Shown: in pieces, positions 18,246 to 61,163 of the stretch
Layout: every line of letters begins with the position of its first letter
Numbering within the stretch: position 1 is the first letter of the stretch
From: Fabrea salina
Taxonomy: Eukaryota > Ciliophora > Heterotrichea > Heterotrichida > Fabreidae
Direction of reading: 5' to 3'
Length of the DNA stretch: 64,000 nt
Assembly: GCA_022984795.1 (NCBI GenBank)
Contig: JALIHJ010000022.1
Span: 227,150-291,149, forward strand
The notes under the pieces: generated by a model
Seen by the model: the letters and a program-made list of their open reading frames with translations, nothing else
What the model was told of the DNA's origin: nothing
The model's database searches: none
Translations under genes and position numbers: made by a program

Positions 18246-19574
18246 ATGTCCCAGGTAAGTTACTCACAGCTAGAGGATAAACCCTCTGCTTGGAGCAAGT
18301 TCAAAGGCTCAGTTAGAAAACTAGGAACTGCTCCTAGTGAACTTTGGCTGGCGTTTGCTATAAACTTCGTTGCGTTCTGTGGGTTTGGGCTTTTGTCCTT
18401 TTCATTGGCTTTGTACCTGAGAGTAGTTCACGGTATGGACGACCAAACAGCAGGGTTTGCTTTTTCACTGAAAGGGGTTGTTTACTTTGTTTACTTGTTA
18501 GCTTTTGGAAATTTGCCAAGTAGATATGGAGTGCGTTTCACTCTAATAGTGAGTTCTGTGCTTGGAATGATAGGTTACTCTGCAGTGATTCTTTCAGGTA
18601 ACATCTACATACAACTGGGGTGTGTATATACTTTTGTAATGGTTTCTTTGGCAACAAGTGTACCTACAACTAAACTAGCAGTCAAGAACTACACGTATGA
18701 AAGTTACAGAAGCATTGCCTATTCCTTTTTTTACTTAGCTAACTCTGGAGCCGGAGTGCTGTCTGGAGTAGTTATTGACTACGTTCTGCACTTGTTCAAC
18801 TCTAGTGAGTTTGCTTTCAAGGTATTGTTCAGCTTGTCTGTGCTTTTGTACTTGAGTGCACTGATAATGAGTTTGTTTCTGAAGGAACTGGACCTTGAAT
18901 CTTCAGGCCAAAACGAAGTAAGGGTAACAGCTAAAACTAACTGGTGCAAATACAACAAAGAGGTACTTTCTTTAGCTAGTTTTTGGAGGTTTGCAGCACT
19001 GGTGGTCTTTTTGATAGTTTCTAAGTCAGTTTACTTCCAGCTGGGAGCTACTCTTCCAGTGTACATGATCAGAACTATGGGAGAAGGCGCTCACTATGGG
19101 TACATGCTTGCACTGCACGAGTTAGCTTTGTCAGTGTCAATGCCTAGTTTAACTATTCTTGTTTACTTTTTAAACAACTACTCACTTTTGGTTGTTGGGG
19201 GCACTTTAGTAGGAATTTCATCTGCTGCTATGTTGCTAGGAACTAGTTACTTTACCATTGGAGTGTTTGTGCTGGTGTTAGGAGTGGGTGATGGAATTTG
19301 GACTCCCAGACTGACAGAGTACACAACTCAAATAGCTCCTAAAGGCAAAGAAAGCATGTTTTTGGCACTTGCTGTTATACCTTACTCGTTGAGTGCTATG
19401 ATTGCTGGCATACTGTCTGGGGAGTTACTGAGTAAGTACTGTCCTTCAAATGACACAAGTGACTGTTCCTACGTATGGCTTTATGTGTGCTTGATAGCAA
19501 TGATGTCTCCAATTGTGATGGTAGCGTTTCGAAGGTTTTTGGAAGAACCCAAAGGCTCCTTTAAGAAAACTTAA
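18246..19574 (+). CDS. Major facilitator superfamily transporter
   Basis: The 442-residue protein has twelve predicted membrane segments in two six-helix halves joined by a charged loop near residues 215-240 (KELDLESSGQNEVRV). The helix 2-3 loop carries SRYGVRFTLI, a G-x3-R-type variant of the MFS signature. The substrate is unknown. A 15-nt GT-AG stretch right after the third codon (18255-18269) keeps the frame whether or not it is spliced, so the N-terminus may be MSQ-LEDK rather than MSQVSYSQLEDK. It follows the acyltransferase by 21 nt on the same strand. Confidence 0.85.
   Translation: MSQVSYSQLEDKPSAWSKFKGSVRKLGTAPSELWLAFAINFVAFCGFGLLSFSLALYLRVVHGMDDQTAGFAFSLKGVVYFVYLLAFGNLPSRYGVRFTLIVSSVLGMIGYSAVILSGNIYIQLGCVYTFVMVSLATSVPTTKLAVKNYTYESYRSIAYSFFYLANSGAGVLSGVVIDYVLHLFNSSEFAFKVLFSLSVLLYLSALIMSLFLKELDLESSGQNEVRVTAKTNWCKYNKEVLSLASFWRFAALVVFLIVSKSVYFQLGATLPVYMIRTMGEGAHYGYMLALHELALSVSMPSLTILVYFLNNYSLLVVGGTLVGISSAAMLLGTSYFTIGVFVLVLGVGDGIWTPRLTEYTTQIAPKGKESMFLALAVIPYSLSAMIAGILSGELLSKYCPSNDTSDCSYVWLYVCLIAMMSPIVMVAFRRFLEEPKGSFKKT
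18255..18269 (+). other. Candidate in-frame 15-nt intron in MFS gene
   Basis: GTAAGTTACTCACAG directly follows codon 3. Length, GTAAG donor and AG acceptor match the other introns here, but it has no stop and is a multiple of three, so the sequence alone cannot prove splicing. Confidence 0.45.
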
Positions 19575-19598
19575 CTAACTCAACAAACCCGGTTCTAG

Positions 19599-19634
19599 TC
19601 CTCCATATTTTCGCCAAATTTAAATAGGAGTAGT
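19599..19634 (+). promoter_or_regulatory. Shared 36-bp upstream element, copy 1
   Basis: A 36-bp tract beginning TCCTCCATATTTTCGCC and ending AATAGGAGTAGT lies 20 nt upstream of the ATG of the first Glu/Cys-rich secreted gene. It is identical to 20767-20802. It contains inverted CTCC/GGAG ends around an AT-rich core (ATTTAAAT), and a shared ATTATAAATCAA sits next to both start codons. It is probably a common promoter element or a 5' leader. Confidence 0.65.
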
Positions 19635-19654
19635 ACAATGTATTATAAATCAAA

Positions 19655-20122
19655 ATGTCTCCAAAGCCAATCCAGTTAGTTTTGGTTTGTTGCTGGATAA
19701 TTTTTATCCAAGCAGAAAGGGACGAAGGCCTTTCGGGGCTTTTGAGGAAACAATGTTTCGGAGACTGTGGTCTATTAGAGTCAGTACATCACGAGTACTT
19801 AGAGGAGTCTTCTGAGGAAGAATGCTACATGGAGGAAATCTGTTATACAGAAGAAATATGTTATGAAGAAGTGTGTGAAGAAGAGGAACTAAGCTACCCT
19901 AAGAAGCGTGTTCCTAAAAGAGACTGCACTAAACCCAAACAAAGAACTGAGAAAGTACATAAAAAGCACAAATACTCACCTAAAAAAGAGAAGAAATGCC
20001 AAAGGACTGGAAGAACCATAGACTTTTCTAGGACACCCCAAGGGCATCGAGTAAGACCTAAGTGCAACTCCAGACCTAAAAGTCGCTGGAACAGAAGGGA
20101 AAGTTTCAATAATCACTTTTAA
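19655..20122 (+). CDS. Secreted Glu/Cys-rich protein, paralog A
   Basis: Not a known family. The 155-residue protein has a signal peptide (MSPKPIQLVLVCCWIIFIQA) and a segment shared with paralog B (FGDCGLLESVHHEYLEE). A short acidic repeat follows, built on CYxEE/ICYTEE units (CYMEEICYTEEICYEEVC, near residues 57-75). The C-terminal half is the opposite: strongly basic, with many Lys, Arg and scattered Cys. The acidic-then-basic layout with regular Cys suggests self-association or matrix assembly outside the cell or in secretory granules. That is inference. Confidence 0.75.
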   Translation: MSPKPIQLVLVCCWIIFIQAERDEGLSGLLRKQCFGDCGLLESVHHEYLEESSEEECYMEEICYTEEICYEEVCEEEELSYPKKRVPKRDCTKPKQRTEKVHKKHKYSPKKEKKCQRTGRTIDFSRTPQGHRVRPKCNSRPKSRWNRRESFNNHF

Positions 20123-20141
20123 GTAATTAAATCTTCCACTA

Positions 20142-20495
20142 TTAGTCACACTGGTCTTTTTTCCCAAAAATACTGTATCTGTTCCTTGCAATGAATCGGT
20201 AGAGAGGGTTCCTTAAAAAAGCAGGGACCACAAGTAACCCTGACATAGTCCAGTAAGGAAAGCCTAGGTAACTGCACGCCATAAGCACTCCAGTGGACTC
20301 CAAGTAAACTTTTCCTTCGTCAATAAAAGCTACTGAGCTCATGTCTTTAGGGATTTCAGGGTATTGTTGGAAGACCTCAGGTTTTCTTTGGTAAGGTATG
20401 CACTGGATAAGTTCTGGCGGGCTTTTCTTCTTAACTATGCTGACTCCCCAACTGCAGAGTTTGCAGACTCCGTCGTACATCACTACTTTAGTCAT
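20142..20495 (-). CDS. DCC family thiol-disulfide oxidoreductase (DUF393)
   Basis: The 117-residue protein begins TKVVMYDGVCKLC, the D-G-x-C-x2-C signature that names the DCC family. The family is thioredoxin-like and thought to act in thiol-disulfide exchange. The C-terminal region has PLYRFIARNRYSIFG, typical of the family. It lies on the opposite strand between the two Cys-rich secreted paralogs; a role in folding them is possible but unsupported, since no signal peptide is visible. Confidence 0.85.
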   Translation of the reverse strand: MTKVVMYDGVCKLCSWGVSIVKKKSPPELIQCIPYQRKPEVFQQYPEIPKDMSSVAFIDEGKVYLESTGVLMACSYLGFPYWTMSGLLVVPAFLRNPLYRFIARNRYSIFGKKDQCD

Positions 20496-20766
20496 GTTTT
20501 AATAACCAGCATGGCAGGAGTTTAAGTTAACAACAAGTTGAGAGGTGGTATCAAAAGTTAACTTAATAGCTAGATGCTTTTTCCAAAGGGTGTTCTTAGT
20601 TGTCTTTATTAGCGGAAAAAACTCTCCATAAATCTTAATTTGCTTTTCTAGGATTTTAGAGGAACCAACAAGTTCCTTGTAAGAAGCTTAATCAATTCTT
20701 GATTACGAAGTAAGAAGCACTAACAGTTCTAGTAGCCCGATGGAGCCTTGATTAGTGCTTCAACTC
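20496..20766. other. 271-nt intergenic region without recognised genes
   Basis: AT-rich, with no convincing open frame, tRNA or repeat. It separates the DCC gene start from the element upstream of paralog B, so it may hold divergent promoters. Confidence 0.5.
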
Positions 20767-20802
20767 TCCTCCATATTTTCGCCAAATTTAAATAGGAGTA
20801 GT
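20767..20802 (+). promoter_or_regulatory. Shared 36-bp upstream element, copy 2
   Basis: Identical over 36 bp to 19599-19634 and placed 19 nt from the ATG of paralog B, almost the same distance as in paralog A. Flanking bases between element and ATG have diverged, apart from ATTATAAATCAA next to the start. Confidence 0.65.
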
Positions 20803-20821
20803 GGAATCAATTATAAATCAA

Positions 20822-21709
20822 ATGTCTCCGAAAGCAATCCAGTTAGTTTTAGCTTTTTCTTTGCTAATTTTTGCTCAGGCAGAAAGGGACCAAAGCATTC
20901 CAAGGCTTTTGGGAAGGCGAAGTTTCGGAGACTACGGTCTATTAAAGTCAGTACATCACGAGTATTTAGAAGAAGGGTATTTTGAAGAAGAATGCCAAAA
21001 GGAGTACTATTACGAAGAAGAATGTCAAGACCACTGGGAACAAGAATGCTACACTGAAGAGGTGTGCTATGAAGAAGAAATTTGCTACGAAGAGTATGAA
21101 GAAGAATACTATTGGGAAGAAGAATGCGAAGAGTATGAAGAAGAATACTATTGGGAAGAAGAATGCGAAGAGTATTGCTACGAAGAAGAGTATTATTGTG
21201 AGGAGGAATGCCAGGAAGAAAGCTGCGAATTCACAAGAACAGTAGAGTTTGAAAGTGAAGAGTTCAGTTCACATGAATTTGAATATGAAAGCTCTGACAA
21301 ATTTGAGTACGACCTAGAACTAGAATATAGGCAGGAAGAAGAATGCGAAGATGGCAGCTACATCTACATTGATGCTAACGGAGAATTCATGGAAGAAACT
21401 AGGACTGGCTATGATAGACAGCGAGAGTCGCAAATAGACTATTTCTCAGAGTCAGAAATTGAAGGAGACTGTGACGGTCTTGAAGGGTCTTGCCGAACAG
21501 AACTGGATTACTCAAGACAAAGCGAATCAGAAGACTGGTATCATAACGAAAGGGACGAAAACCACGAAATAGAAGTTGAGTTCGAGTATGAAGAAATCGA
21601 AGGAAGTCTAGACCTTTCTACTAGCAGTAGCAGCAAGACTGACTACAACAAGGAGAAAAGGAATGACTTTAGTCTGTTTATAGACAAGGCTGCAAGCTTC
21701 GATGAGTAA
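20822..21709 (+). CDS. Secreted Glu/Tyr/Cys-rich protein, paralog B
   Basis: The 295-residue product starts at ATG 20822; the GTG-initiated extension to 20801 is rejected because it runs into the shared upstream element. The signal peptide (IQLVLAFSLLIFAQA) and the segment FGDYGLLKSVHHEYLEE match paralog A. Residues ~55-140 are an extremely acidic array of EEEYYWEEEC-like units containing a 13-residue tandem repeat, with regularly spaced Cys and Tyr. The rest is acidic and Ser/Glu-rich with few Lys. No catalytic domain is visible. A calcium-binding, cross-linked matrix or granule-content protein is a reasonable guess. Confidence 0.78.
   Translation: MSPKAIQLVLAFSLLIFAQAERDQSIPRLLGRRSFGDYGLLKSVHHEYLEEGYFEEECQKEYYYEEECQDHWEQECYTEEVCYEEEICYEEYEEEYYWEEECEEYEEEYYWEEECEEYCYEEEYYCEEECQEESCEFTRTVEFESEEFSSHEFEYESSDKFEYDLELEYRQEEECEDGSYIYIDANGEFMEETRTGYDRQRESQIDYFSESEIEGDCDGLEGSCRTELDYSRQSESEDWYHNERDENHEIEVEFEYEEIEGSLDLSTSSSSKTDYNKEKRNDFSLFIDKAASFDE
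21089..21166 (+). repeat. 39-bp coding tandem repeat, two copies
   Basis: The 39-bp unit encodes a 13-residue block (EEYEEEYYWEEEC) and occurs twice with essentially no change at 21089 and 21128, which points to recent duplication. Shorter degenerate EEEC units flank it. Confidence 0.8.
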
Positions 21710-24650: not shown

Positions 24651-26873
24651 ATGGATTCCATGACTGAGTTCGGCCAAGACTTAATTGACAAAAGAAGCAC
24701 AAGACTTGTAAGCACTTTAGACCAAAGTAAGTGACACTTAGAACACTTTGACGTTTTAGGAAGCAACGGCATTTTTGAGATCAAACCTCCAGTTTTGTGC
24801 TTTGCCGGTTATGAAGCCAAGAAGACCCAAGTGAAAAAACTATTTGTGAAAAACATATCTGGAGTTCCCCAAAGACTCAGCATCCTGCCTACCAACACGC
24901 CTTACTTCAAAGCTAGGTACAACAAGAAAGGCATGCTTGCCTCTGGAATGAACGAAGTAGTTTACGTGCAGTTCACTCCACCTGAGTGGAGGTACTACTA
25001 CGACTGTCTCAGAGTGCTTTCTGAAGGAGGCAACTTAAACGTTCCAGTGCACGCCTACCCAGTTATGAACTCAAAAGAAAGGTACCTTCCTTCGTTTTTG
25101 GACTTGGGCAAGTGCAGTTTGGGACAGACTCTGCAGAAACAAGTTTTTTTGGAAAACTCAGTCCCTGTCACTTTTGAGTACGAGTTAAGAGTAGTCCAGC
25201 ACCACCCTGACTTCAAAATAGAACCTTTAAGCGGAGACATCAACCCTAAGTCTAGTGAAGAAATAGTTATAACTTACCAACCAAAGTCAGCCTCAACAGC
25301 CACCATTGAAGTGGAACTTCTTTTGAGTGAGTTTGACTTCCAACCTGCCAAAATGAAAGTCATAGCTAGTGCTGTCCACGAAAACACCCTAGTTCTAAAC
25401 TCCCAAAAAACCCTTAAAAAAAAACCTTCCCAAACTACTCAAGAGAAATCCATTGAGAAACCCAGGAAACTTCCTGAACTCCTTTCAAAGCCCTCCAAAA
25501 CCCTAACTAAGGCAACTAAGTTTTTAGCTAAAACCAAACTCCTTGACAGAGTGATTTTTGAACAGCAGTTCAACACTGAGTTCAGAATCATAGAAGAAAA
25601 CGACAGAGAAAAAGAATTTAAAATCTTCCAGTGCTTAGGAATTGAAGAACCTAGTATCGACTTCGAAGACTCTGTGCACAACTCACGCGAAAACAAAGAA
25701 CAAAAACGCAGACAGCTCTTAAGGGAAAGAGACTGCATACGCAACTCCTACTGCCTAGACTCAGACAAGGTAGTTTACAACGTAAACAGCATTCCCCAAG
25801 TGAAGCCTTCCTGGAACTCCTACCAAAACGACGAATTTACTCTAAGACAGTTACCACTCAAAAAACTTGTAAAGGCTGCAAGTGTAGTGATGACCAGGAA
25901 CAGAGCCAGCAAGCGACTCCGTATGCTCAAAGAACGCTTGAACAAGCACAGAGTCCACAACAAAGAAGACGCATTGAACTTTGTAACTTGGGACTGGAAC
26001 CAAGCAGAACTAGTTGGCTTAGGATCAAAAGAACACATTCCTTTTGAGTTCAGCATCAAACAAGAAGACCTTAAAGGGGTGGACTTTCCTTTGGAGTTCC
26101 AAACTAGTTCAGAAGAGTCCCAAGCAAAGGTTGAAATAGAACCCCTTGAGTCCTTCGACAGTCTTAAAGCCATGAAGCAACTTGAAAGCCAAGACTTCCT
26201 ACTTGCGAACTATAAAGACTTTAGAACTCCCAGTGCAGGGGAGTATCTCCCTATTGAAAAAGAAAGGAGTTTCAGAAGTGGAGCTGAAGAAGAGTACAGT
26301 TCAGTTTTAAAGAAAGGCGAAGTAGAAGAACACCTAGCAGAGGACCTGCCCAACAACTCCTTGAAGCCCATGGCCATAGACCCTGTTTCTTTGGTGGGAC
26401 CCCACCCAACCCTTCGTCCATACTTAAAACTAACAGGTGAAACCGAAATATCAGGGGACTTTTGGTTGCGTGCTAGAGAGATGCCTAGAGCTCTGCCAGA
26501 AGACTACCCAGGTCTTTGCTACCCCCAAAGTGCCTTTTTGTACTCTGCTTGGCGTCCTAAAATGCAAAGAGCAAACTACCCAGTTCCACAGAAGCTAACA
26601 GGAGTTGCACCAGCAGAGGAACTCAGCGACTCCGACAGTGAAACTGAAACAGTCGAAGCAGAAGAGTTGCCTGAGTTAGAAGAGTACCTAAGTGCTTTTG
26701 AAGACGACAAAGTTCTTTCAGAAACAGGCACTCCGCAAGACCCTCAAGAACTCAACTTAGACCTGAAAAGCAGCTTCTTAGAAGACCAAAAGCGTAAAAG
26801 TTTTGCGTGGCTGAAAACTGGAATTTCAGAAGCAAACAAAGAAGTTAAACACCATAAAATAAGTCTTGTTTAA
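24651..26873 (+). CDS. CFAP221: CFAP221 (PCDP1) central-apparatus protein
   Basis: CFAP221 is a component of the C1d projection of the central pair and binds calmodulin. Translation from ATG 24651 (MDSMTEFGQDLIDKRS) requires a 15-nt intron at 24727-24741. The second exon continues KHFDVLGSNGIFEIKPPVLCFAGYE. An MSP/ASH-type beta-sandwich spans roughly residues 45-240 (VPVHAYPVMN, DFKIEPLSGDINPKSSEEI). The central basic helical region (FEQQFNTEFRIIEENDREKEF) and C-terminal block with HPTLRPYLKLTGETE agree with the family. The spliced protein is 735 residues, near the usual size. Confidence 0.87.
24727..24741 (+). other. 15-nt intron in CFAP221
   Basis: GTAAGTGACACTTAG contains an in-frame TGA when retained. 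Removing it fuses the 25-codon first exon to the main frame (codon split 1/2). Confidence 0.9.
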
Positions 26874-26879
26874 ATCAAA

Positions 26880-29800
26880 ATGCTAAGTAGGGAAGGAAAG
26901 AAAACACTTAGTCAAAACAGGTTTGAACTCAGGAAGAAACTGCTTGTTGAAGGCCAGGAAGGGAGTTCTTACAGCCGAAACAGAAAACTCAAAAAGATCC
27001 CCGACGTGCAACTAGTCAAAACCTTGGAACCCGAACAAGTAAGGAAGTTATTCCAAAAAGACAGGGAATTCAGCAAAACCAAGTTAGTTTCCAATAAAAG
27101 CAGAAGGGATGTCAGTTATCTGCGGGACTTCAGAAACAAAGACCTGCGCTTTACAAGACAAGGCTTTGGAGTCTACCCCACAGAAATCAGCCACTTGAGA
27201 AAACTGCTGGCTTGCTACGAAGAGAACTACGGGTCACCCATTCCACTCCACAACCCCCTAACTTGCACTAAAGAACAATGCGCAGACTTTTGTATAGCTT
27301 ATAAAAAACGAAGGAACTCAGGCGACATGGACGAAGACACTCCAGAGTGGCTGGAAAGGCAGTTCTTGGGGTACCCTACAGGACGCCAAGACATCAAGAA
27401 CTTAAGGAACTGGTTCAGGTACATGAAGGAGAACTTTGGAAGGGACTCGGAAAATATGAGGATAGTTTTTGAAATTTGCAAAAAAGAAATAATTAGGCAA
27501 GTAAGTGTGCAGTGTTTCGAACGAGGAGACCTTTTGGCAGAACTCTGGGAAGTGGACGAGAGCATCAACGCTGACCGGCAGAGTGAACTGAGGAGCGAAC
27601 TAGAGTCTGCTAAGAACTCTTTGCTAGCCCAGATTTCTGACCTCAAAAAATACATTGCAAAGCAAAAAGGTGACTCTGAAAAACAAAGGAAGGACTTCAA
27701 AGAAAGAATTCAAAAGAAAAAGAAAAAAGTTGAGTACTTGAAAGACTACTCTAATGAGTTGTACAAAAAACTAAACGAAATGCAAAAAAAGTACTACGAA
27801 GACCAAGCTAACTGGAGAGCTAAAGAAATCTCTTTGACCACACTGAGTCCTTTAGTGGGCTACAACAAGGAACCAGAAGACCAAAAGGTAGTAGTGGTTT
27901 CTTCTCAGAAAAAAGTTAAAAACACCCACTCAGAGCAACCATCTGCAAGAAGCATCCAAGAAGATTCTATTTTAGAAGAAGAAAGCAAAGTTCAAGATAC
28001 CCAAGCACAGGAAAGTATTGAAGAGGCACAAGAAACTCCTCAAGCAGAGGAAACTCCTGATGAAGTGCAAGAAACCCCTGATGAAGTGCAAGGAACCCTT
28101 GAAACAGTGCAAGAAACCACTAGTTCAGTAGAAATTGGAGTTCAAGTTAATTCACAAGGACCTGAAGTAGCTGTTAAGTGCCTGCAAACCTCATTTGACG
28201 AGTACAACTCTGAACAAGAGGTTAGTGAACCCGAAGCAGTCCAGGACTCAGAAGAGGCAGAAAACACCCAAGAAGAGGACAGCCAACTCCAAGAAAGTAC
28301 TGGAAAAGAACCAGAAAATCTAGAAGCTGCTGACCAAGCTCTGGAAAGTCCACAAAACCCAGAAATTGTGGGGGAAGACCTAGAAAGGCCAGAACAGAGC
28401 CCAGAAAACCCAGAAGGTCCAGACCAAGCCTCAGAAGAATCCCAAAAAGACGCCAAAAGCTCAAAAAAGCGTAATCAGAAAGGCAAGAACTCCCAGGAAA
28501 AGAAAGTAATAAAACCCAAGAAGTTTAAACCTGAAAAGAAACACATTGAGCTTAGCTCGCAAAAATCCTCAGAAGTGTTTATAGTCAGTAAAGCACTCAG
28601 TGGAGTCAGTAAAGGAACTGAGGAACTAACTACTCAAAAAAAGCAGAAAGAAATAAAAGAACTAGAAGCAACAGCAGAAAGCAAGAAAAAAGACCTAGAA
28701 GACCTAGAAGCAGCCATACTGAACAAAAGTTTGCAACTACAACAAATCCAAGCAGAAATGGAACTTAGTCAACAAGCCAAAGCTAATGAAGCTTTAGAAG
28801 ACGAGGAGCTAGATGAGTCTTTGAGAAGCTTAATTCCTAAAGGAGCGCATATTCCAAGTTGGAAAGCAGGTTATAACGTTGGGTACGAAAAAGGAGTAGT
28901 TGCTGGGTACAAAGACGGAGAACAGTTTGGCAAAGAAGAAGGAGTCATGGAAGGTTACCTGAAAGCCATTAAAGAAAGGTCTGAAGACAACTCTGAGCTG
29001 GAAGAACAAGAAAGCCAGTACATGCAAATGCACTCTTTTATAGAAGAAGACAGTGTAGTTGAACCCAAGCCAATTCTGCCTAAGATCGGAAACAGAATCA
29101 ACAGAATTACTAAGTTCCACGAATTCAACTTCCACAGAAAAGACCCCTCAGCCCACAAAAAGTCAAGTCCTGCTTTGGGCCTCCTGCAGAACTTTCTTCG
29201 AAAAAAACTTGAAACTATCAAAAAGAAGTCTACAATGAGCCGCAAAATGGTCAATAGAATAGTTGCCAATTTATACCATAGCCTCTTTGACACTGAACTT
29301 AACCAAACCTTAGTGGAGTACATTTACGATGACTTTATCAATAAGTACGGACTTAAAAAGGTAGCGGAAAAGAAGTACTTGGAGTTCATTGCTTCAGTGA
29401 TAAGACACTCTGAGTACAGAAGAAGCAGGATGTTTGTGAAGTTCATTGGCATAGCTAAGAAGATAAACCTAGAAAACTACACCAAAATGGGCTTTGAGTT
29501 TTATCTGCCGTGCTTGCAGTTCATGATGAACTCCAAAATTGGAATAGTTATAAACTACGACGACACCGAAGACAAACAAATGTTTCCTGTGTCACGTGCT
29601 ATAGAATGCACTAGGGAAAACCTCCACTTTTTGTACGAAAAACAAAAACTGCAAGAAATAGTTAATAAAATCGAACGCTCAGCCACTGAAGACCCGAAAA
29701 AGATCAACAGAGGAGGACTGGTTGAACTAGAGTTTGTACTAGAAGTTCTCTGTGAAGCCTTTGAGTCACACCGAGAAAACATAGAAAATGGAGTTGGAGT

Positions 29801-30311
29801 TCTTTTAGATGCCATTGGCAACCAAGAAGACTCCATCACCAAAGCTGAGCTGGAAGTCTTAATCAGACAAATTTCCCCAGAAAGACTCATGATGCTTAAA
29901 GAAGACGAAGAAGACAGTAACTCCAGCAGAGTGAGGAGCGCAAGGGTTAACTCGGACATTTTGGAGAAACAAGAGTTCTCTTTAGAAGAGCTAATGAACA
30001 AGTGCATTTACAAAAACTTTTTGGGACTGAAGGACGTTAAGAACTTCTACGACCCAGAGTCTCAAAACTTAGAAGAAGACATCCTCAGCATGGCCCAGAA
30101 AAGACCAGTGCTTCAAACGATCATTGACCAAATAAACCAAGTTCCTGACAACATTAAAAAAATCATTCCTGCTTTGGAGTGGCAAACCAAACTGGACTTT
30201 TTGCTTGAAAATTCCAACACTTCTGAAGGGAAATACAAAGTGCTGGGCTGGAAAATCTTTGAAAAAGAACTAGAATGGATCCAAAAAGAGTATTTGGCAG
30301 ACACTCAGTAG
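26880..30311 (+). CDS. Large ciliary-type protein with axonemal-dynein-light-chain-like segment
   Basis: Not assigned to a named family. The 1143-residue product has a basic N-terminus, then a conserved-looking block around residues 190-220 (CKKEIIRQVSVQCFERGDLLAELW). This resembles the RQ-V-C-ERG-LL motif of axonemal dynein light chain/AXDND1 proteins. A coiled coil follows, then an acidic low-complexity region (residues ~370-560, rich in Glu, Gln and Pro). Next is a Gly/Tyr periodic stretch (GYNVGYEKGVVAGYKDGEQFG) of the deca-GX3 kind, and finally a helical C-terminal domain with an EF-hand-like part. The position after CFAP251 and CFAP221 supports an axonemal role by association only. Confidence 0.65.
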   Translation: MLSREGKKTLSQNRFELRKKLLVEGQEGSSYSRNRKLKKIPDVQLVKTLEPEQVRKLFQKDREFSKTKLVSNKSRRDVSYLRDFRNKDLRFTRQGFGVYPTEISHLRKLLACYEENYGSPIPLHNPLTCTKEQCADFCIAYKKRRNSGDMDEDTPEWLERQFLGYPTGRQDIKNLRNWFRYMKENFGRDSENMRIVFEICKKEIIRQVSVQCFERGDLLAELWEVDESINADRQSELRSELESAKNSLLAQISDLKKYIAKQKGDSEKQRKDFKERIQKKKKKVEYLKDYSNELYKKLNEMQKKYYEDQANWRAKEISLTTLSPLVGYNKEPEDQKVVVVSSQKKVKNTHSEQPSARSIQEDSILEEESKVQDTQAQESIEEAQETPQAEETPDEVQETPDEVQGTLETVQETTSSVEIGVQVNSQGPEVAVKCLQTSFDEYNSEQEVSEPEAVQDSEEAENTQEEDSQLQESTGKEPENLEAADQALESPQNPEIVGEDLERPEQSPENPEGPDQASEESQKDAKSSKKRNQKGKNSQEKKVIKPKKFKPEKKHIELSSQKSSEVFIVSKALSGVSKGTEELTTQKKQKEIKELEATAESKKKDLEDLEAAILNKSLQLQQIQAEMELSQQAKANEALEDEELDESLRSLIPKGAHIPSWKAGYNVGYEKGVVAGYKDGEQFGKEEGVMEGYLKAIKERSEDNSELEEQESQYMQMHSFIEEDSVVEPKPILPKIGNRINRITKFHEFNFHRKDPSAHKKSSPALGLLQNFLRKKLETIKKKSTMSRKMVNRIVANLYHSLFDTELNQTLVEYIYDDFINKYGLKKVAEKKYLEFIASVIRHSEYRRSRMFVKFIGIAKKINLENYTKMGFEFYLPCLQFMMNSKIGIVINYDDTEDKQMFPVSRAIECTRENLHFLYEKQKLQEIVNKIERSATEDPKKINRGGLVELEFVLEVLCEAFESHRENIENGVGVLLDAIGNQEDSITKAELEVLIRQISPERLMMLKEDEEDSNSSRVRSARVNSDILEKQEFSLEELMNKCIYKNFLGLKDVKNFYDPESQNLEEDILSMAQKRPVLQTIIDQINQVPDNIKKIIPALEWQTKLDFLLENSNTSEGKYKVLGWKIFEKELEWIQKEYLADTQ

Positions 30312-30336
30312 TTAATTAAATAAGAACATTCTATCA

Positions 30337-31299
30337 ATGTGGAGGAAGCTGATGATTCCAGCAGTCGTAGGCTTAGGTGGAGCCAACGCCTTTTTAAAAG
30401 ACTTAAGCACAGCAGAGGTCTGTGAAGGAACACTTCCTTCAGTTTTCAGAATACTTGTTTACCACCCTTTAAACGGAACACTTGTAGGAATAGGTTCTGG
30501 GTTCTTCATCAGACCTGACGGAACCGCTTTGACGGCGTGCCACGTGATCATTCCACAGCACAAACTCAAAGTTAAACTAGACAACGGAAAAGAACTAGAA
30601 GCTAAGTTTCTAGCAGGCCACCATCCCACCGACATAGGCCTCATTAAAGTCCACACACAAGACCCCATCATTCCTGTTAAAGTAGGCAACTCTGACCAAC
30701 TGAAGCGGGGGGAGCAAGTTATCCATATTGGCAACACAATGTTCAGTGACTCAAACGACATCGATGTAGGCTACGTGAACAAACTAGACGACGACACTCC
30801 AGAGTGGCTGAAGTCCCAACTAAAAGGAGACATAGCTCCTCCAGAGTCAGGACTGAGTTTCATAAAGACCACAGGCTCAGTGAGACCTGGATTTTCAGGG
30901 GGTCCTCTCGTGAACATGAAAGGTGAAGTTGTAGGACTCATTTCTAGAGTTTTTGTGCAGATGCACCAAACAGGTCCTGAACACGAAGGAGCTAGCATCC
31001 CTATGAACTTTGTAGAAACTATCATCAAGCAACTTGAAGAAAGAGGCCAGGTAGAAAGACCCTACATTGGGTGCAGCTTCATGAAAGTAGAAGACGGACT
31101 AGGGATCTTGAAGGTCCAGCCTGGTTCTCCAGCTGAAGCCTCTGGACTTAAAGTTGGAGACGTACTTTTAGCAGTCAACAACAAAAAGATGAAGCACCCT
31201 GAAGACTTCTTTAAAGTCATAGGCTACCAAAAAGGAGTGGAGTTTAACCTTGAAGTTCTTAGGTCCCAAAAAACAATCAACTTAACCATTAGTGCTTAA
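30337..31299 (+). CDS. HtrA/Deg-type serine protease with PDZ domain
   Basis: The 320-residue protein has a trypsin-like HtrA protease domain followed by one PDZ domain (YIGCSFMKVEDGLGILKVQPGS context, residues ~235-315). The catalytic triad is visible as H in ALTACHVI, D in HPTDIGLIKV and S in RPGFSGGPLV; the usual GNSGGP is GFSGGP here. The hydrophobic N-terminus (MWRKLMIPAVVGLGGANAF) could be a mitochondrial targeting or signal sequence. HtrA proteases act in protein quality control in mitochondria or the secretory pathway; localisation here is undecided. Confidence 0.9.
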   Translation: MWRKLMIPAVVGLGGANAFLKDLSTAEVCEGTLPSVFRILVYHPLNGTLVGIGSGFFIRPDGTALTACHVIIPQHKLKVKLDNGKELEAKFLAGHHPTDIGLIKVHTQDPIIPVKVGNSDQLKRGEQVIHIGNTMFSDSNDIDVGYVNKLDDDTPEWLKSQLKGDIAPPESGLSFIKTTGSVRPGFSGGPLVNMKGEVVGLISRVFVQMHQTGPEHEGASIPMNFVETIIKQLEERGQVERPYIGCSFMKVEDGLGILKVQPGSPAEASGLKVGDVLLAVNNKKMKHPEDFFKVIGYQKGVEFNLEVLRSQKTINLTISA

Positions 31300-31304
31300 T
31301 AAAA

Positions 31305-34300
31305 ATGCTTTTGATACTGCTGTTTGACTTAGTAACTGGGGGTTTGCTTGCCCCTGTGAATCCAAAACCTATCCAACTCTCCACTAACAACATCAACCAG
31401 CACTCTGACTACACATTCTTTTTCCAAATATCTTCTTATGTGCCTGAGTCTTCAGTCCTTAGGATCAAGTTTCCCGAAAACAACTACCAAGCAGGCCTGG
31501 GAATGGGTTCCTGCGTTGCTGAGAACTGGAGCCAGCAAACAGTTTCCTGCAGTGTTTCAGGAACCACATTAGAAGTTACTTTGAGTGAAATGAGTAATGC
31601 AGAGCCCAAAATCACCTACTCAGTAAAGGTTTTTGGAGTGCAGAACCCAGGTTCAAGGGGAGGAACTGGAATGTTTTCTTTAGAAACTAGGAAAGGAGTT
31701 AACATCCTTGACTACAACGACTACTTTGGCGAAATAGGTTTAACTGAAGAAGTAAGTGCCATTGTTTCCGCTAGTGTGGCTTGTGACTCCAACTGTAAGT
31801 CTGGCCAGGTTGCCCAGTACACCTTTTCTTACAATAATGTGGTGAATTACCTAGAAAAAACTAGGATCTTCATTGAGTTTCCTAGTACTTTGCAGTTAGG
31901 TACTGCTTGTTCTTCTTCTGAAATTCCAGCCATAAAGTGCTCGGTTTCAAACAACTTAGTTTCTATTGAAAAGGTTCCAGAGATGCCAAGTGGAACAAGC
32001 ATTTCAGTAACCTTCAGCAGTGTCCAGAACCCACCTTACAGTGGAAGCGTAGGTGACTTTAAAGTCTGGACTTACTCTCCCAAAGTAGAAACCAAACTTG
32101 AAGAATCAGCCTCTGTGCCAGGCCCCACGGTGATTGCTAACGACATTACTAACATAGAAGTCTGTCCCTCGGGCTCTTGTACTCAAAACTACTCCCGAAT
32201 CATCCAAGGCAACTCCCAAACCTACTACTTAAGTGTCACTACCACAAACCCTGTGCCTAACGGTGGAGTAGTTGTTATTGATTTTCTCTCTGGTTTCCAA
32301 ATACGCCAAAACTCTTGTTTAGTTACCTCAGGCCTTCAAAACCAAGGCTACACAGAAGAAGACCAAGTTTTGTGCGAATTAGTTTCTTCCCAGCTTAGAA
32401 TATCCAAGTTCGCAGAGTTCCAACCAGGCAGTTTTGAACTCCAACTAATAGCACAAAACCCCTCTCCAGGAACTCACACCCCTATTTCTGTAAGTACTTT
32501 TTATGACTCAGGCATGACTAAGGAGATAGACAACGGAAGCATGGGAAGTGTGGTGGTGGAAAGCACTACTTCTCTGGGCAAATTTGAAATATCTTGGAGT
32601 GGGTCCCTGAATGTGAATGTAGGAGTCACAGCTTCAATCATCTTTAGACCCACCACTGACCTGAACTGTCCTGACGTAACTATAGAAATGGAGTTTGGAG
32701 ACAGCTTTGGGTTCAATGGAAACCCAAGTGGAAAACTGACTCCGCATGACGTGTACCCTGAACTTGCAATAACGCCTGCTTGGTCTTCAGGGACTCTTAC
32801 TTTTCCAACAACTGGAACCAACACCCTTCTTTCTAATGAAGACAACCAAGTTGAGTTCGGAAGTAGTGGCACTGGCCTTGTGCTGCCCTCTACTCCTGGA
32901 ACTTACTTTTTCGAAGTAACAATTAAAACCACTACAGGACATATTGAAGCGAAGTTGTTTGAAATGGAAGTCCTTCCAGATAGTTTGTCTGGGAGTTTAG
33001 AAGTGTTCAGCGACGATGTGGAGGCTTTTTCTATATACGAAGTAAGCTTTACTCCCAGTATAGACATTCCTGATGGAAAAGTTCCTGAAGTAGTGTCTGA
33101 TTCTTGGGGAACTATTGACTTGCTGTTTCCTACCTTGGACTCTAACTTGCAGTACTTGTGGAAGACTGATTTAGGCACTTCTTTAGCCGAAGGAGGAACT
33201 GTTCCTTGCAAGGGCATCCAAAACATCCAGCCCTACCAAGACAATATTAGTTGCAAACTAATTCCTGCAACTTCTGTAGTCACCGACCAGTACTCTATTG
33301 TGAGAGTAACTAACTTTGCTGCAATTTACAGAAACCTCGAAGCTAAGTTGCACATCTCCAAAATCGAAAACATTCAAACAGCCCAACTAAAGCCAGAAAT
33401 CCAGGTTAAAACTTACTCCATCAACCAAAGAAAGTACCAACTACTCAATAGTGGAAGTTTCCAACTCCCCAGAGTTTCTTACCAAGACAATAACCCTGAC
33501 TTGCCTCCTGTGAACGGACGCTCTCCTCCTCCTTACGGAGACTCCCAAAACACTATTACTTTTTCTCCTAACACTGTCAACTCCCAAACTGTTTTGTCAT
33601 TTACTTTGTGGACTGAAAAACCAATAACTACCGGAGGTTCAATTATACTAAAGTTTCCGCAAACTTTTCCTCTTCCTCATACAGAAATTAATTGCTACAT
33701 TAACTACTCCCAAAAGCAAACTTGCTACACCTACCCTGATGCTGCTTGGATAGGAGTAACTACTTCAGTGCCTCTAACAGACCATGAAGAGTACTCATTC
33801 ACCATCACTGGACTCAAAACACCCAACCAGCGCGAAGAACCCCAAAGTGTTCAAATGGTGCTAGTTTCCTCCCACAAGGAGTCAGAGTATTCCTACTTCA
33901 CAGAATTAAACTACTTTGAACCAGGCAATATAGAGTCCGTAAACGTGTGGAGTGACTCTAAAGAAGCTATGCAGCCTGGAGTTACTTACACTTGGCAGTT
34001 TACTTTGACAAACAGCATTAATAAAGGTGGGCTTTTGGTTTTGACCTTTCCTAAGGAAAACTACGTGCTGGACCTTACTCCTTCACCTACTTGCGAGGTT
34101 TCCTCTGGACTGAGTGGTCAAATTCAGTGCAGTGTTGCAAGGAACTCTGTAAAGGTACTGAACTTCGAGAACCATACTGCAGGCAACGAAATACAAATAC
34201 TTATCCACAAAGTACTGAATCCCCAAAACCAAGGACTCACTGGCAAGTTCTCGATTGAAAGTTATTCAGAACAGTCCAAACTTGTCGATGCTGTTTATGA

Positions 34301-37300
34301 CATCACTGGGGTAGTTATAGAGTCCAAGTCAAAAATAGGGACTCTTAAGTTCCTGGACTTCTTTGCAGACCCCCTGAATGGAAACTCATTAGCTGACTAC
34401 ACTCTTTCACTTAAACCTTCAAAAAGTATTCCTGAGGGTTCAGTTATAAAAGTGACTTTCACTGGCTTTGCAACATTGCCAAACCCTCCTAGTTGCAGTG
34501 TTTCAGGAGGACTTGAGACTTTCGAGAGTTGCTTAAGCACTGGAAACACCATAAGTATAACTACAGACTTAACTTATCAAAAAACTTCAATTGCACAGCC
34601 CATAAACATGACTTTTCACGGAATCCAAAACTTTGCTTCAAACACTACTTCTGACTTGGTTGAAGTAAAGATTTCCAATGCAGGAGTTACCTTAGAAGAG
34701 ACTCCTACAAGTGAAGAAAACAGAAAAATAACTACTGTACAAGAACCCAAGTCGTTACAGTTGCTGAGTTTAAGGTACTCGCCTGTAACTCCTGCACAAA
34801 GGTCTGAGTACAACTTTACTTTTTCAGTCCAAGCTGGATTAGAGTGTCCTTTGGTGATTGAGTTCCCCCGAACATACCCCAGAGGACTTGCCCAAGGAAT
34901 TAAGTGCTACTCCACAGAACTTTCGAGGCGCTTTGACTCCCAAGTTAGCTGCAAAGTGGAATCAAGAAAGTTGGAGGTTTACAACACCCAACTTTTAGAA
35001 AACTTCACTCTTTCCGTCAGGTACATCCACAACCCTAACAGCGGAAATGCCCAGCAAAAGTTTTCATTCTACACAAAATGTGGCTACCAAATGCTTAGTT
35101 ACGGGGAGTACACTAATAAGGACATGTTCCAAACTCAACCCCTAGAAATGTTCCTAGACAGCACTACTATCAAAGAAAGCAGTATTTCTTACTCAAACGA
35201 AGAAATCACCCTTGCAGCAAACTCAAGTTTTGTTTTTTCTGGAGCTGACACTGACAGAATCATAGTTGACTTCCCTTTTGACTACAAATTAGATTACTTG
35301 CCAAACAACCTTTTCTGCGACTCAAGCTGCGTAAGTGGAAACTCAGAACCATGCACTTACTCTTCCAATCAGGTTTCTATACAAGGATTTGTTTACGCAA
35401 CCTCTTGTCCAGACCAGCTTGTAGTTAACCTCAGAGGACTAGAAAATCCCCATGTTGAGGGGCAGGCCAACTATATTTCAGTTTCGATTTACAACGGAGT
35501 GACTCAAAGAATCTTTGCCAAAACTTTTCCCAACCTTAATGTTGCCGAAGCTTTTAGTTACCAAAAGAAGGGCAGAGAAATCCTCATGAACCAAAAAAAG
35601 GAGTTTTCAGTAGTCAAAGGAACTATGACTAACTCTATGACAGCCCAAGTAGAGGGAGGTGCTAGTGCAAGTTTAAAGTTTAAAGGCCAAGTAAGCGAAA
35701 CTGAGTGTCAGCTAGAACCCCAAGAATTGAGTTTTGAGCCTGGAGAAGACCAAAAAACATGGGCAGTGTCTTGCAGTCCTTCTGCCTCAACAGGAGAGCA
35801 CTACATTCACTGGAGTTTTGACGAAAGTCTTCTGGATTACTACTCTCCAATAACTCGGAGTGTATTCTACGTAGAAGAAGGCTTTACTGAACTCATAAGT
35901 GCCAGTAGTATAGGAGTAGTGCCTTTAGGAGGTCAGAGCTTTCCTGTGACAGTTTCTTTGTCCCGACCTCCCAACTTCTTAGTAAAAGTAGTTTTGAGCA
36001 AGGTTGGAGTCTTACCTACAGGGGCTGTGATTTCTCCAGACGTTCTTGAGTTTGCTCAAGGGGAAACCACTAAGGACTTTAACGTTGAAGTAAGTCTAGA
36101 CTCCTACGGTTTGGAAGGCAAAGTAAGACTTAGTGTTTACGGACAAAATGCAAAGAGTTACTCACTTGAAAAAGAACTACTTACTTACACTGTAGGCAAA
36201 AAAGACGCTTTCAACCCCCTGATTATTGACTATCAGACTACAAAGGTAAGTAGAACATCTGCTACTTTTTCTGTAGTTGCTAACGAGCCATGCAACGTTT
36301 ACTGGATGCTCTCTAAGCACGGAACAAGACAGCCTACCTTAGCTGAAATAAAAGCCCAGGCTCTCAACGAAACAGGTTTGGAGGACCAGCCTAGGTTTGG
36401 AAGGACTTACTCCTATACTGCACCTGAGTCTAACAGATTCTTTTACACAGTAAGTGTAAGTGGCTTAGTTGCCCAAAATAACTATTCCATGTTCTTTGAA
36501 GTAGTTGACTTGGGCGGAAACAAAGCTCTAGAAAGTCCCTTTATACCATTCAGCACTCCAGACAGGTTTCGGTCTGCTACCTTTACTCTAGAGTTCACCG
36601 AAGAGATTGGCAATGTGGAAGAGGTGCTACAACTCATCAGCCAGCTCCTTCAGGTCAAACCAGAAAGAGTTATTCAGAGAAAGGACTACTCTGGAAGCAC
36701 AGGGTCTGCTCCTAAAACCACTTACCACTCCAAAAACTACACTACTTCTTCAGGAATTTCTCGAAGACTCCAAGGAGCAACCCAACTAGACGTTGTGGTA
36801 CTGCCTGACCCCCACTCTTCTTCCCAGGACTCTCCTAAAGCTCTAGCAGAGTCCCTGGACTTACAAGTTATAGCCAACAGGTTTCCTGAGTTCAAAAAGT
36901 CCAGTTCGCCACAAGAAATATATGGAGTTCTGCCTCTGCTTAAAACCAAGCCTAGAGTTGTCTCAGCTGTAAGTTCTAACTTGGTAGTAAGTGACTTATC
37001 ACTTTTTGAACCAGGAAAAGTCAGTTTGTGCTTAACTAAGTACAAAACAAGCATGGGCAGTCCTGTTCCAAGTCAGATTGTAAACGGACTGAATCCCAGG
37101 AATCATAAATGCGAGCACTTCCTTAAAGTTGAAGCAAACTCAGTTCCGCAGAAAGTGAACTTTGACCAAATAGCAAAAGACACAGAGTACAGACTGTTTG
37201 TGTCAGCTGAGAACACCCTAGAAGGGTACCCTGATGTTATGGACTACGTTTACCAAGTAGCTTTCACTACCTACGGAATGAACGACGAACAAAGCTGTCT

Positions 37301-37337
37301 TTACGTGCTGAGTTTAAGCTTGATGCTTTTAATTTAA
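31305..37337 (+). CDS. Giant secreted, probably GPI-anchored, beta-sandwich repeat surface protein
   Basis: The 2010-residue protein has a signal peptide (MLLILLFDLVTGGLLAP). About ten divergent repeats of 120-150 residues follow. Each repeat has a YTFxF/YTWQF strand, a hydrophobic I-x-FP strand, a Cys pair, and a closing V-x2-(V/I)QNP or LNPQNQG-like motif (for example VFGVQNPGSRGG, FSSVQNPPYSG, IHKVLNPQNQG). Residues ~1490-1640 resemble a Calx-beta-like region. The extreme C-terminus (DEQSCLYVLSLSLMLLI) is a hydrophobic tail after small residues, as in GPI signals. Many N-x-S/T sites are present. No enzyme motif is seen; an adhesive or surface-coat role is inferred. Confidence 0.8.
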   Translation: MLLILLFDLVTGGLLAPVNPKPIQLSTNNINQHSDYTFFFQISSYVPESSVLRIKFPENNYQAGLGMGSCVAENWSQQTVSCSVSGTTLEVTLSEMSNAEPKITYSVKVFGVQNPGSRGGTGMFSLETRKGVNILDYNDYFGEIGLTEEVSAIVSASVACDSNCKSGQVAQYTFSYNNVVNYLEKTRIFIEFPSTLQLGTACSSSEIPAIKCSVSNNLVSIEKVPEMPSGTSISVTFSSVQNPPYSGSVGDFKVWTYSPKVETKLEESASVPGPTVIANDITNIEVCPSGSCTQNYSRIIQGNSQTYYLSVTTTNPVPNGGVVVIDFLSGFQIRQNSCLVTSGLQNQGYTEEDQVLCELVSSQLRISKFAEFQPGSFELQLIAQNPSPGTHTPISVSTFYDSGMTKEIDNGSMGSVVVESTTSLGKFEISWSGSLNVNVGVTASIIFRPTTDLNCPDVTIEMEFGDSFGFNGNPSGKLTPHDVYPELAITPAWSSGTLTFPTTGTNTLLSNEDNQVEFGSSGTGLVLPSTPGTYFFEVTIKTTTGHIEAKLFEMEVLPDSLSGSLEVFSDDVEAFSIYEVSFTPSIDIPDGKVPEVVSDSWGTIDLLFPTLDSNLQYLWKTDLGTSLAEGGTVPCKGIQNIQPYQDNISCKLIPATSVVTDQYSIVRVTNFAAIYRNLEAKLHISKIENIQTAQLKPEIQVKTYSINQRKYQLLNSGSFQLPRVSYQDNNPDLPPVNGRSPPPYGDSQNTITFSPNTVNSQTVLSFTLWTEKPITTGGSIILKFPQTFPLPHTEINCYINYSQKQTCYTYPDAAWIGVTTSVPLTDHEEYSFTITGLKTPNQREEPQSVQMVLVSSHKESEYSYFTELNYFEPGNIESVNVWSDSKEAMQPGVTYTWQFTLTNSINKGGLLVLTFPKENYVLDLTPSPTCEVSSGLSGQIQCSVARNSVKVLNFENHTAGNEIQILIHKVLNPQNQGLTGKFSIESYSEQSKLVDAVYDITGVVIESKSKIGTLKFLDFFADPLNGNSLADYTLSLKPSKSIPEGSVIKVTFTGFATLPNPPSCSVSGGLETFESCLSTGNTISITTDLTYQKTSIAQPINMTFHGIQNFASNTTSDLVEVKISNAGVTLEETPTSEENRKITTVQEPKSLQLLSLRYSPVTPAQRSEYNFTFSVQAGLECPLVIEFPRTYPRGLAQGIKCYSTELSRRFDSQVSCKVESRKLEVYNTQLLENFTLSVRYIHNPNSGNAQQKFSFYTKCGYQMLSYGEYTNKDMFQTQPLEMFLDSTTIKESSISYSNEEITLAANSSFVFSGADTDRIIVDFPFDYKLDYLPNNLFCDSSCVSGNSEPCTYSSNQVSIQGFVYATSCPDQLVVNLRGLENPHVEGQANYISVSIYNGVTQRIFAKTFPNLNVAEAFSYQKKGREILMNQKKEFSVVKGTMTNSMTAQVEGGASASLKFKGQVSETECQLEPQELSFEPGEDQKTWAVSCSPSASTGEHYIHWSFDESLLDYYSPITRSVFYVEEGFTELISASSIGVVPLGGQSFPVTVSLSRPPNFLVKVVLSKVGVLPTGAVISPDVLEFAQGETTKDFNVEVSLDSYGLEGKVRLSVYGQNAKSYSLEKELLTYTVGKKDAFNPLIIDYQTTKVSRTSATFSVVANEPCNVYWMLSKHGTRQPTLAEIKAQALNETGLEDQPRFGRTYSYTAPESNRFFYTVSVSGLVAQNNYSMFFEVVDLGGNKALESPFIPFSTPDRFRSATFTLEFTEEIGNVEEVLQLISQLLQVKPERVIQRKDYSGSTGSAPKTTYHSKNYTTSSGISRRLQGATQLDVVVLPDPHSSSQDSPKALAESLDLQVIANRFPEFKKSSSPQEIYGVLPLLKTKPRVVSAVSSNLVVSDLSLFEPGKVSLCLTKYKTSMGSPVPSQIVNGLNPRNHKCEHFLKVEANSVPQKVNFDQIAKDTEYRLFVSAENTLEGYPDVMDYVYQVAFTTYGMNDEQSCLYVLSLSLMLLI

Positions 37338-37340
37338 TAA

Positions 37341-37706
37341 ATGTTTGAAACAAAACAACTAGAAAAGGAGTACCAAAAGGCCCAGCAAGAACTAGAAGAA
37401 GTTTCACACCAAATGAGGAAAGCTGAAATGAAGTGTTACTTGAAAGAGAACTACAAGTGCGTGCAAGAATTCGACGAGTTCAAACTAAGACACGCTATGC
37501 TGTACAGAAGACGCAACTTGGACATGGAACTGTGCCAAGAGTCCTGTAAGCCCTTAAAAGTTCACTCTAAACAGGATCCAGAAGTCCTCAATAAGTTCTA
37601 TGAGTGCATTTCTCCTTGTTACCACATAGCAATAGACTACTTTGGCCAAGAAACCCAACTCATGGCTTCTGCTCTTAAAAACTTCAAAAGCAAGTACTTA
37701 CACTAG
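37341..37706 (+). CDS. Small twin-CX3C protein
   Basis: The 121-residue helical protein has two CX3C motifs, CQESC and CISPC, separated by 19 residues, plus two further Cys near the N-terminus (KCYLKENYKC). Twin-CX3C proteins such as the small TIMs and FAM136A fold in the mitochondrial intermembrane space by disulfide relay, with no cleavable presequence; none is visible here. The spacing does not match any one small TIM exactly, so FAM136A-like is an alternative. Confidence 0.6.
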   Translation: MFETKQLEKEYQKAQQELEEVSHQMRKAEMKCYLKENYKCVQEFDEFKLRHAMLYRRRNLDMELCQESCKPLKVHSKQDPEVLNKFYECISPCYHIAIDYFGQETQLMASALKNFKSKYLH

Positions 37707-37711
37707 TATAA

Positions 37712-47328: not shown

Positions 47329-47352
47329 TTATTTATTTATTTATTTATTTAT
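47327..47352. repeat. (ATTT)n microsatellite
   Basis: About six and a half perfect ATTT units lie directly upstream of the guanylyl-cyclase start codon, on the minus strand reading as AAAT units. Confidence 0.9.
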
Positions 47353-47370
47353 TGGAATTGTTGTAAGCCG

Positions 47371-47611
47371 TCTAGGCCTCTGCTTCGTGTCTTGGGAAGT
47401 TTTTTGGTTGGGTTGTCATTTTCTTCTGCCGTTCTTTTCCTCTTGAGTTCCGTTCGTGTTTCTTCGTGTTTTGGGAGCGTCATTGTTCCGTTTTCTAGGC
47501 CTCTGCTTCGTGTCTTGGGTAGTTTTTTGGTTGGGTTGTCATTTTCTTCTGCCGTTCTTTTCCTCTTGAGTTCCGTTCGTGTTTCTTCGTGCTTTGGGAG
47601 CGTGTTGTTCC
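47371..47611. repeat. 123-bp tandem duplication, in-frame
   Basis: Two copies with a 123-bp period (starting 47371 and 47494) differ by only a few bases. The period is 41 codons. On the minus strand the frame ending at TAA 47349-47351 is open through both copies (277 nt of codons) and encodes a very basic, charged product; its first ATG is at 47483 (44 codons). The plus strand is also open. No homology is recognised, so coding status is uncertain. Confidence 0.8.
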
Positions 47612-47838
47612 GTCTTCCTGCTTTGTTTCATCGTGTAGAATCTTTCTGGTTTTAATGATTGTGTTTACGTAGTTCTTAATCTCTCTGTCTAGTTTTTGCT
47701 TTTGTTTCGTCGTGAGCTGGTTGCTAACTCCATTTATAAATACTTGATTTTTTCAAATTTATATCAGTTTATTATGATATTAACTAAGACTCTCAGTAGT
47801 CCCATAAGATTCTTTACAACAGAATTTTGCTTGTATAA

Positions 47839-55176: not shown

Positions 55177-55212
55177 ATTGCAAAAACTTTTCTAAGTCCT
55201 TTAAACTTAAAA

Positions 55213-61100: not shown

Positions 61101-61163
61101 AATTTAATTTTGTTAATTCTTGATTAAATTGTTTATTGCTAGTTCTTGATTCTCTGTTGGTGT

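Follow-up and report, generated by a model that had tools for sequence, protein, structure and literature searches.

Two neighbouring genes of the ciliate Fabrea salina, A and B, belong to a family of eight genes (A–H) that encode secreted-looking proteins, and all eight carry the same short module at a fixed position upstream of the ATG. The module, the case for which is strong, consists of CCATATT (CCATTTT in E), a gap of 5–7 nt, CAA and a TATA-like stretch. As an explanation of the whole we lean towards joint regulation of A–H, with products that make up an extracellular matrix of this heterotrich.

Results

The gene pair and its setting

The window, the whole stretch of 64,000 nt that was analysed, is the end of contig C18 in an assembly of 18.33 Mb, and it is gene-dense and eukaryotic. 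Tiny introns are typical of heterotrichs; an intron scan of the window gave no consistent 15–16-nt peak (the maximum was 17 on one strand and 16 on the other), and this argument for a heterotrich was dropped for that reason. A telomere-like array of about 98 copies of GGTGTTAG lies at 61159–61941. Read on the other strand, GGTGTTAG is a permutation of CCCTAACA, which excerpts of PMC9942806 give as the repeat of the heterotrich Blepharisma; this speaks for a heterotrich here too. From the 3′ side of the array up to the contig end (64000), the DNA is G+C-rich and resembles bacterial DNA: it matched 92 plasmid records, 77 of them from Sinorhizobium, and the best match by score was cysQ of Pseudooceanicola algae (70.6% over 38% of the query). 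The contig end is probably chimeric, with bacterial DNA fused behind the telomere in assembly.

Several other features of the window were recorded along the way. Long reading frames at 24795–38854 stand only a few bases apart (26873/26880, 31299/31305 and 37337/37341), an intergenic spacing that is very short for a eukaryote. A 123-bp tandem duplication (2.0 copies, 96% match) occupies 47371–47617, near an (ATTT)n tract at 47327–47353, and a 72-bp repeat array of up to 4 copies (56483–56769) falls within a long reading frame at 55078–57453.

The preliminary description had presented A and B (Table 1) as paralogs, and their protein alignment is indeed beyond chance (z = 14.5 against 100 local shuffles). 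The parts that it had named as common to the two, namely a signal-peptide-like start, the segment FGDxGLLxSVHHEYLEE and Cys-Tyr-Glu repeats, are shared in the alignment. Also as described, A turns basic (pI 11.3 for residues 81–155) while B stays acidic, with a pI of about 4.05 for residues 21–80 of A and for the whole of B; the 39-bp tandem repeat in B was confirmed. The statement that the coding parts have diverged widely needs amending: similarity does fade later, but over the first 51 codons the DNA keeps 79% identity, with 33 of 51 residues identical, dN 0.18 and dS 0.58. Similarity between the genes runs from the upstream block through the leader and the ATG into these 51 codons and then fades, and it is absent in the 200 bp 3′ of the stops. 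For B we used the ATG at 20822; the listing of open reading frames (ORFs) opens this frame at an upstream GTG, 20801.

Table 1 Features around genes A and B, in window coordinates
Feature	Position	Strand	Remark
MFS transporter, neighbour; 3′ end carried along in the duplication	18246–19574	+	PF07690, E = 3.5e-20
Promoter-like block of A (CCATATT box, CAA and TATA-like stretch)	19599–19634	+	
Gene A, 155 aa, secreted-looking; Cys-rich acidic middle and basic tail	19655–20122	+	
DCC1-like thiol-disulfide oxidoreductase gene, between A and B	20142–20495	-	PF04134, E = 2e-19
Decayed copy of the MFS transporter 3′ end (source 19466–19581)	20581–20698	+	
Promoter-like block of B	20767–20802	+	36/36 identical to the block of A
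Gene B, 295 aa, secreted-looking, acidic; C-terminal domain common to B, C, D and F	20822–21709	+	
39-bp tandem repeat within gene B	21088–21175	+	2.3 copies, 100% match

The DCC1-like gene that separates A from B was considered as a functional partner of the pair and rejected, because a tblastn comparison with the stretches around C–H (L014, L025, L045, L046 and L047) found no relative there (best E 3.2). We treat it as what it probably is, a bystander.

A family of eight genes joined by protein similarity

A search for further related proteins, which the preliminary description had proposed, turned the pair into a family of eight. The six additional secreted-looking proteins lie on four other contigs of the same assembly: C on contig C11, D on C10, F and G on C50, and H on C75, with E, a secreted-looking Cys-rich gene, adjoining D. 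Members were gathered by protein similarity and not by the motif; E alone was brought in by its adjacency to D. The queries of the genome searches were A, B, C, E and F, and D, G and H did not serve as queries. With A, only B was recovered (the next match had E 0.4). B retrieved A and C (C at E = 3.7e-15), its five other matches falling within C or at E 0.04–2.5, and C in turn retrieved B (1e-13) and D (E = 1.1e-6). On the other side of the family, E found G (7.5e-64), F (1.4e-34) and H (1e-6), and F found E, G and H. The halves B/C/D and E/F/G/H stayed separate in the genome searches that used C, E and F: B, C and D were not listed with F as query (E up to 10), nor was F with C.

All 28 pairs were also compared directly, each scored as z against 100 local shuffles. 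Only the C-terminal part was entered for D (217 of 777 residues) and for H (560 of 1160); the other six chains were entered without the signal peptide. Besides A–B, high values were obtained for B–C (11.0), B–D (6.8), C–D (11.0) and D–F (9.3), and for E–F (21.9), E–G (31.0), F–G (15.5), F–H (10.0), E–H (7.0) and G–H (4.1); C–F gave 2.5, and the other 16 of the 28 pairs lay between −2.5 and 1.8. By these whole-chain scores A resembles B alone, and none of E, F, G and H is directly similar to B.

The two halves are bridged by F, which carries both domain types. Its C-terminal domain scored z 8.0 to D, 5.4 to C and 2.8 to B (300 shuffles), and a profile of the B/C/D domain built without F found F (E = 4e-10, with Z fixed at 1000); A, E, G and H stayed unmatched by this profile at an E threshold of 100. 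In its other domain F aligns with E, G and H, and the profile of that alignment recovers only its own four rows among the eight. The bridge rests on the pairwise z values of the F domain together with the B/C/D profile test. A short motif, [CIS][FYS]GDx[NG], recurs in six of the eight proteins (A, B, D, E, F and G), at residues 34 to 172.

A small acidic secreted-looking protein is encoded divergently from H (6837–7511 of L047, + strand), and an inverted CCATATTT box precedes its ATG by about 50 bp. It might be a further member of the family or a partner. It was left out as a ninth member, since its z of 3.5 was to H only and over acidic repeats, and since the box is inverted.

Features of the encoded proteins

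Hydropathy gives all eight proteins a signal-peptide-like hydrophobic N terminus and four of them (C, D, F and H) a hydrophobic, GPI-signal-like C terminus; by the same measure A, B, E and G lack a hydrophobic C terminus. Chains range from 155 to 1160 aa and differ in architecture, with 7 to 32 Cys per chain past residue 20. The calculated pI is 4.05–4.76 for seven of the eight and 8.6 for A, where the basic residues 81–155 follow the acidic part and account for the higher value. That this basic tail might be a frameshifted acidic domain was tried and rejected: its +1 and +2 frames have no similarity to B, C, E, F or G (z at most 1.5).

Database comparisons placed the two shared domains in no accepted Pfam or PDB entry. 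The earlier view that no known family fits was borne out for A and B, neither of which had a Pfam match at E up to 0.1. At E up to 1, there was no Pfam match for F and G, and all matches of C, D and E were below the cut-off. H exceeded the cut-offs of DUF7553 (60.9 bits; cut-off 27) and DUF892 (25.7 bits; cut-off 23.7), its other matches being below theirs. Both matches fall on acidic helical repeats (best stretches 574–652), for which reason we set the two families aside as probably compositional. Profiles of the two shared domains had no PDB match at E up to 1. A search for relatives of B in prokaryote genomes returned 89 stretches that matched a pattern, none of which was confirmed, and a structure model of B (AlphaFold2, single sequence) was uninformative, with a mean pLDDT of 39.

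A shared module upstream of all eight genes

In the eight genes, the CCAT of the module starts 49, 50, 51, 52, 53, 54, 54 and 57 bp before the ATG. The background consisted of 66 ORFs outside the family (120 aa or longer), some of which are perhaps not genes, from 122,658 bp of DNA made up of the window minus its last 2.85 kb and further stretches (L014–L016, L025, L026 and L045–L048). CCAT[AT]TT at −65 to −40 from the ATG was found in 8/8 family genes and 0/66 background ORFs; elsewhere in the last 100 bp it occurred in one of the 66. The same motif in the same position marks every member and none of these other ORFs. Leave-one-out matrix scores separated the groups widely, with 22.9–32.7 for the family and background maxima of 5.7–9.2, in a comparison that is not fully blind because the two matrix words had been picked by eye in the eight upstream regions. 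B was always excluded from the training sets, as was A when A or B was scored.

Several patterns were searched for in the whole assembly. The 20-bp core of the block, allowing up to 3 mismatches, occurred in 2 places, the blocks of A and B, and the reversed-pattern control also gave 2. A pattern built from A, B and C found those three genes and nothing else (control 0), and a composite pattern found 8 places, which are the eight genes, with a reversed control of 0 and 0.8 expected from Markov simulation (six runs gave 0 to 2). Because the composite pattern was written from the eight, its informative part is solely that no other place matches. Random occurrence across the genome, which the preliminary description had set against its own proposal, was not seen for the full element.

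Shorter patterns behaved differently. The first-guess pattern CCATATTTTC...AATTTWWAT was discarded as a family marker after it found A and B only. CCATATTTN{2,8}MCAAA gave 21 matches, with about 20 expected and 7 in the reversed control, and was rejected as a genome-wide marker for being at chance level; five of its matches stand 51–57 bp before signal-peptide-like ORFs and are those of A, B, C, F and H. By comparison, CCATATTTN{6,14}TATAAA, that is CCATATTT near TATAAA, gave 12 matches against about 1.3 expected (control 2). Two of the 12 belong to C and D, a third to an orphan copy, on contig C35, of the promoter of D, and five sit 19–67 bp before other ORFs (L029, L031, L032, L034 and L037). 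The CCATATTT box may therefore serve more widely as a promoter word. The ORF behind the box in L032 also starts like a signal peptide. The full module in register was seen at the family alone.

The orphan D promoter (L033 and L048, the latter being G000:C35:245000-250500) has its breakpoint at the start of D, and no ORF of at least 40 aa starts within the next 260 bp. It is accompanied on C35 by a second copy of the gene preceding D, which we take to be phosphatase-like.

Duplication and constraint at the 36-bp block

The block upstream of A and B had been described as 36 identical base pairs at the same distance from both ATGs. The identity is exactly 36 bp; the distances differ by 1 bp, the block ending 20 bp before the ATG of A and 19 bp before that of B. 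Ahead of B lies a decayed copy of the end of the transporter gene, with 80 of 111 aligned positions identical to the source (72%) and 12 gap positions; its local score is 29, and 1000 single-base shuffles reached 22 at most. This copy indicates that a segment of transporter end plus gene was duplicated in tandem. A and B accordingly stem from a tandem duplication that took along the 3′ end of the upstream transporter; since then the flank copied with them has decayed, and the promoter block has been kept.

Because the copied flank is only 72% identical, the 36/36 identity points to constraint. The chance of such identity is 7e-6 at 72% per site (0.72^36) and 2e-4 at 79% (0.79^36). As a gauge of drift the flank is approximate, because of the two transporter ends one remains coding sequence. 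The earlier suggestion of strong constraint on a regulatory-looking element gains from the presence of a form of the block at all eight family genes. Gene conversion, offered in the same place as the alternative, is not favoured, as C–H keep a degenerate block over the same extent; because these genes retain the module, we rejected gene conversion or leftover identity as the sole cause of the block.

Alternative explanations

The block could still be read as a functionless residue of the tandem duplication or of conversion between neighbours. A and B are tandem duplicates, as the copied transporter end ahead of B attests, and 79% identity persists across their first 51 codons, both of which speak for such a reading. 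Against it, the flank copied in the same event has dropped to 72% with gaps while all 36 bases of the block survive, and C–H, on four other contigs, keep the module in the same place. The idea is largely refuted thereby, and we consider it highly improbable.

A functional module need not serve a co-regulated matrix set. The eight genes might simply be very highly expressed, with the module as a strong general core promoter of such genes; the enrichment of CCATATTT close to TATAAA and its place before five other ORFs speak for this, but the full bipartite module occurs at no other place in the genome and no score among the 66 background ORFs exceeds 9.2, so that we hold it to be unlikely. The module might also act in RNA, as part of a short 5′ leader that affects translation or stability, instead of as a promoter. 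At no more than 60 bp from the ATG, it could fall in a 5′ leader, and the similarity of A and B continues from the block through to the ATG; the TATA-like stretches and the variable 5–7-nt gap between fixed words look more like protein–DNA recognition, and action in RNA strikes us as improbable. Finally, A–H could be variable surface antigens akin to the immobilisation antigens, sharing a promoter for mutually exclusive expression. GPI-like tails in four of the eight, Cys-rich segments and widely diverged paralogs would suit antigens, but none of the eight matches a Pfam surface-antigen family (E up to 0.1 for A and B, up to 1 for C–H), half lack the tail, and chains of 155 to 1160 aa with differing architecture fit poorly; we find this quite unlikely.

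Discussion

The explanation that we prefer, a co-regulated matrix set, would work as follows. A single transcription factor, or else an initiation complex dedicated to these genes, would read CCATATT...CAA beside the TATA-like core, and all eight genes would be switched together via the shared module. Their products would enter the secretory pathway, with C, D, F and H predicted to be tethered in GPI fashion and A, B, E and G to be soluble. Assembly may proceed by disulfides and charge, with Ca2+ or divalent ions bridging the polyacidic segments and a basic partner such as the tail of A possibly doing likewise. The end product would be an extracellular matrix in the form of a surface coat, a cyst wall or extrusome content.

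The preliminary description had pictured co-regulated polyanionic and polycationic secreted partners. A secreted set with a shared module is what we found, but it numbers eight genes and the basic tail is present in A alone, so a pairing of opposite charges is possible for A alone. Acidity fits secreted proteins exposed to salt in a hypersaline dweller. Since Fabrea salina makes resting cysts, according to excerpts of PMC2662865, the cyst wall is a candidate site beside the surface coat and the extrusomes. In a bolder form, put forward tentatively and with considerable doubt on our part, the eight co-expressed proteins would build an undescribed heterotrich extracellular structure in which polyacidic components, tethered or soluble, are condensed by one polybasic tail, under a dedicated factor and a bipartite core promoter exclusive to the eight.

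One genome yields a candidate regulon of eight genes with one short module at a fixed position, and the natural duplication of A and B shows which bases are under constraint. The transcriptional control of heterotrichs and the make-up of an extracellular matrix become directly testable. Ciliate core promoters are reportedly the subject of TATA-box work in Halteria (PMC7858049) and of a genome paper on Nyctotherus. The literature searched, which did not name the motif and included excerpts of PMC9942806, PMC10946202, PMC2662865, PMC11308186, PMC10980511 and PMC13059789, yielded no description of the family or the module. Nor did the literature search find a paper on a heterotrich granule proteome.

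Three known systems invite comparison. The immobilisation antigens of ciliates, with the Paramecium surface antigens, are secreted, Cys-bearing, repeat-containing and in several cases GPI-tailed, and their paralogs diverge, all of which recalls A–H with their partly GPI-like tails. A–H differ in being strongly polyacidic, in having no Pfam match to these antigens, in the absence of a tail from half of the members and in the basic tail of one. The TMP/Grl proteins of Paramecium trichocysts and Tetrahymena mucocysts are likewise secreted acidic multigene families, with products that co-assemble in granules. Compared through PDB and Pfam only, where the searches gave no match to TMP/Grl, the present family stands apart by its GPI-like tails in four of eight members and its 7–32 Cys. 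The cyst wall proteins of Giardia lie behind a shared stage-specific promoter site, and the likeness to them, which we draw without a claim of homology, is one of organization: the same upstream motif precedes every gene of a small group whose products are secreted, contain Cys and are structural, here putatively so.
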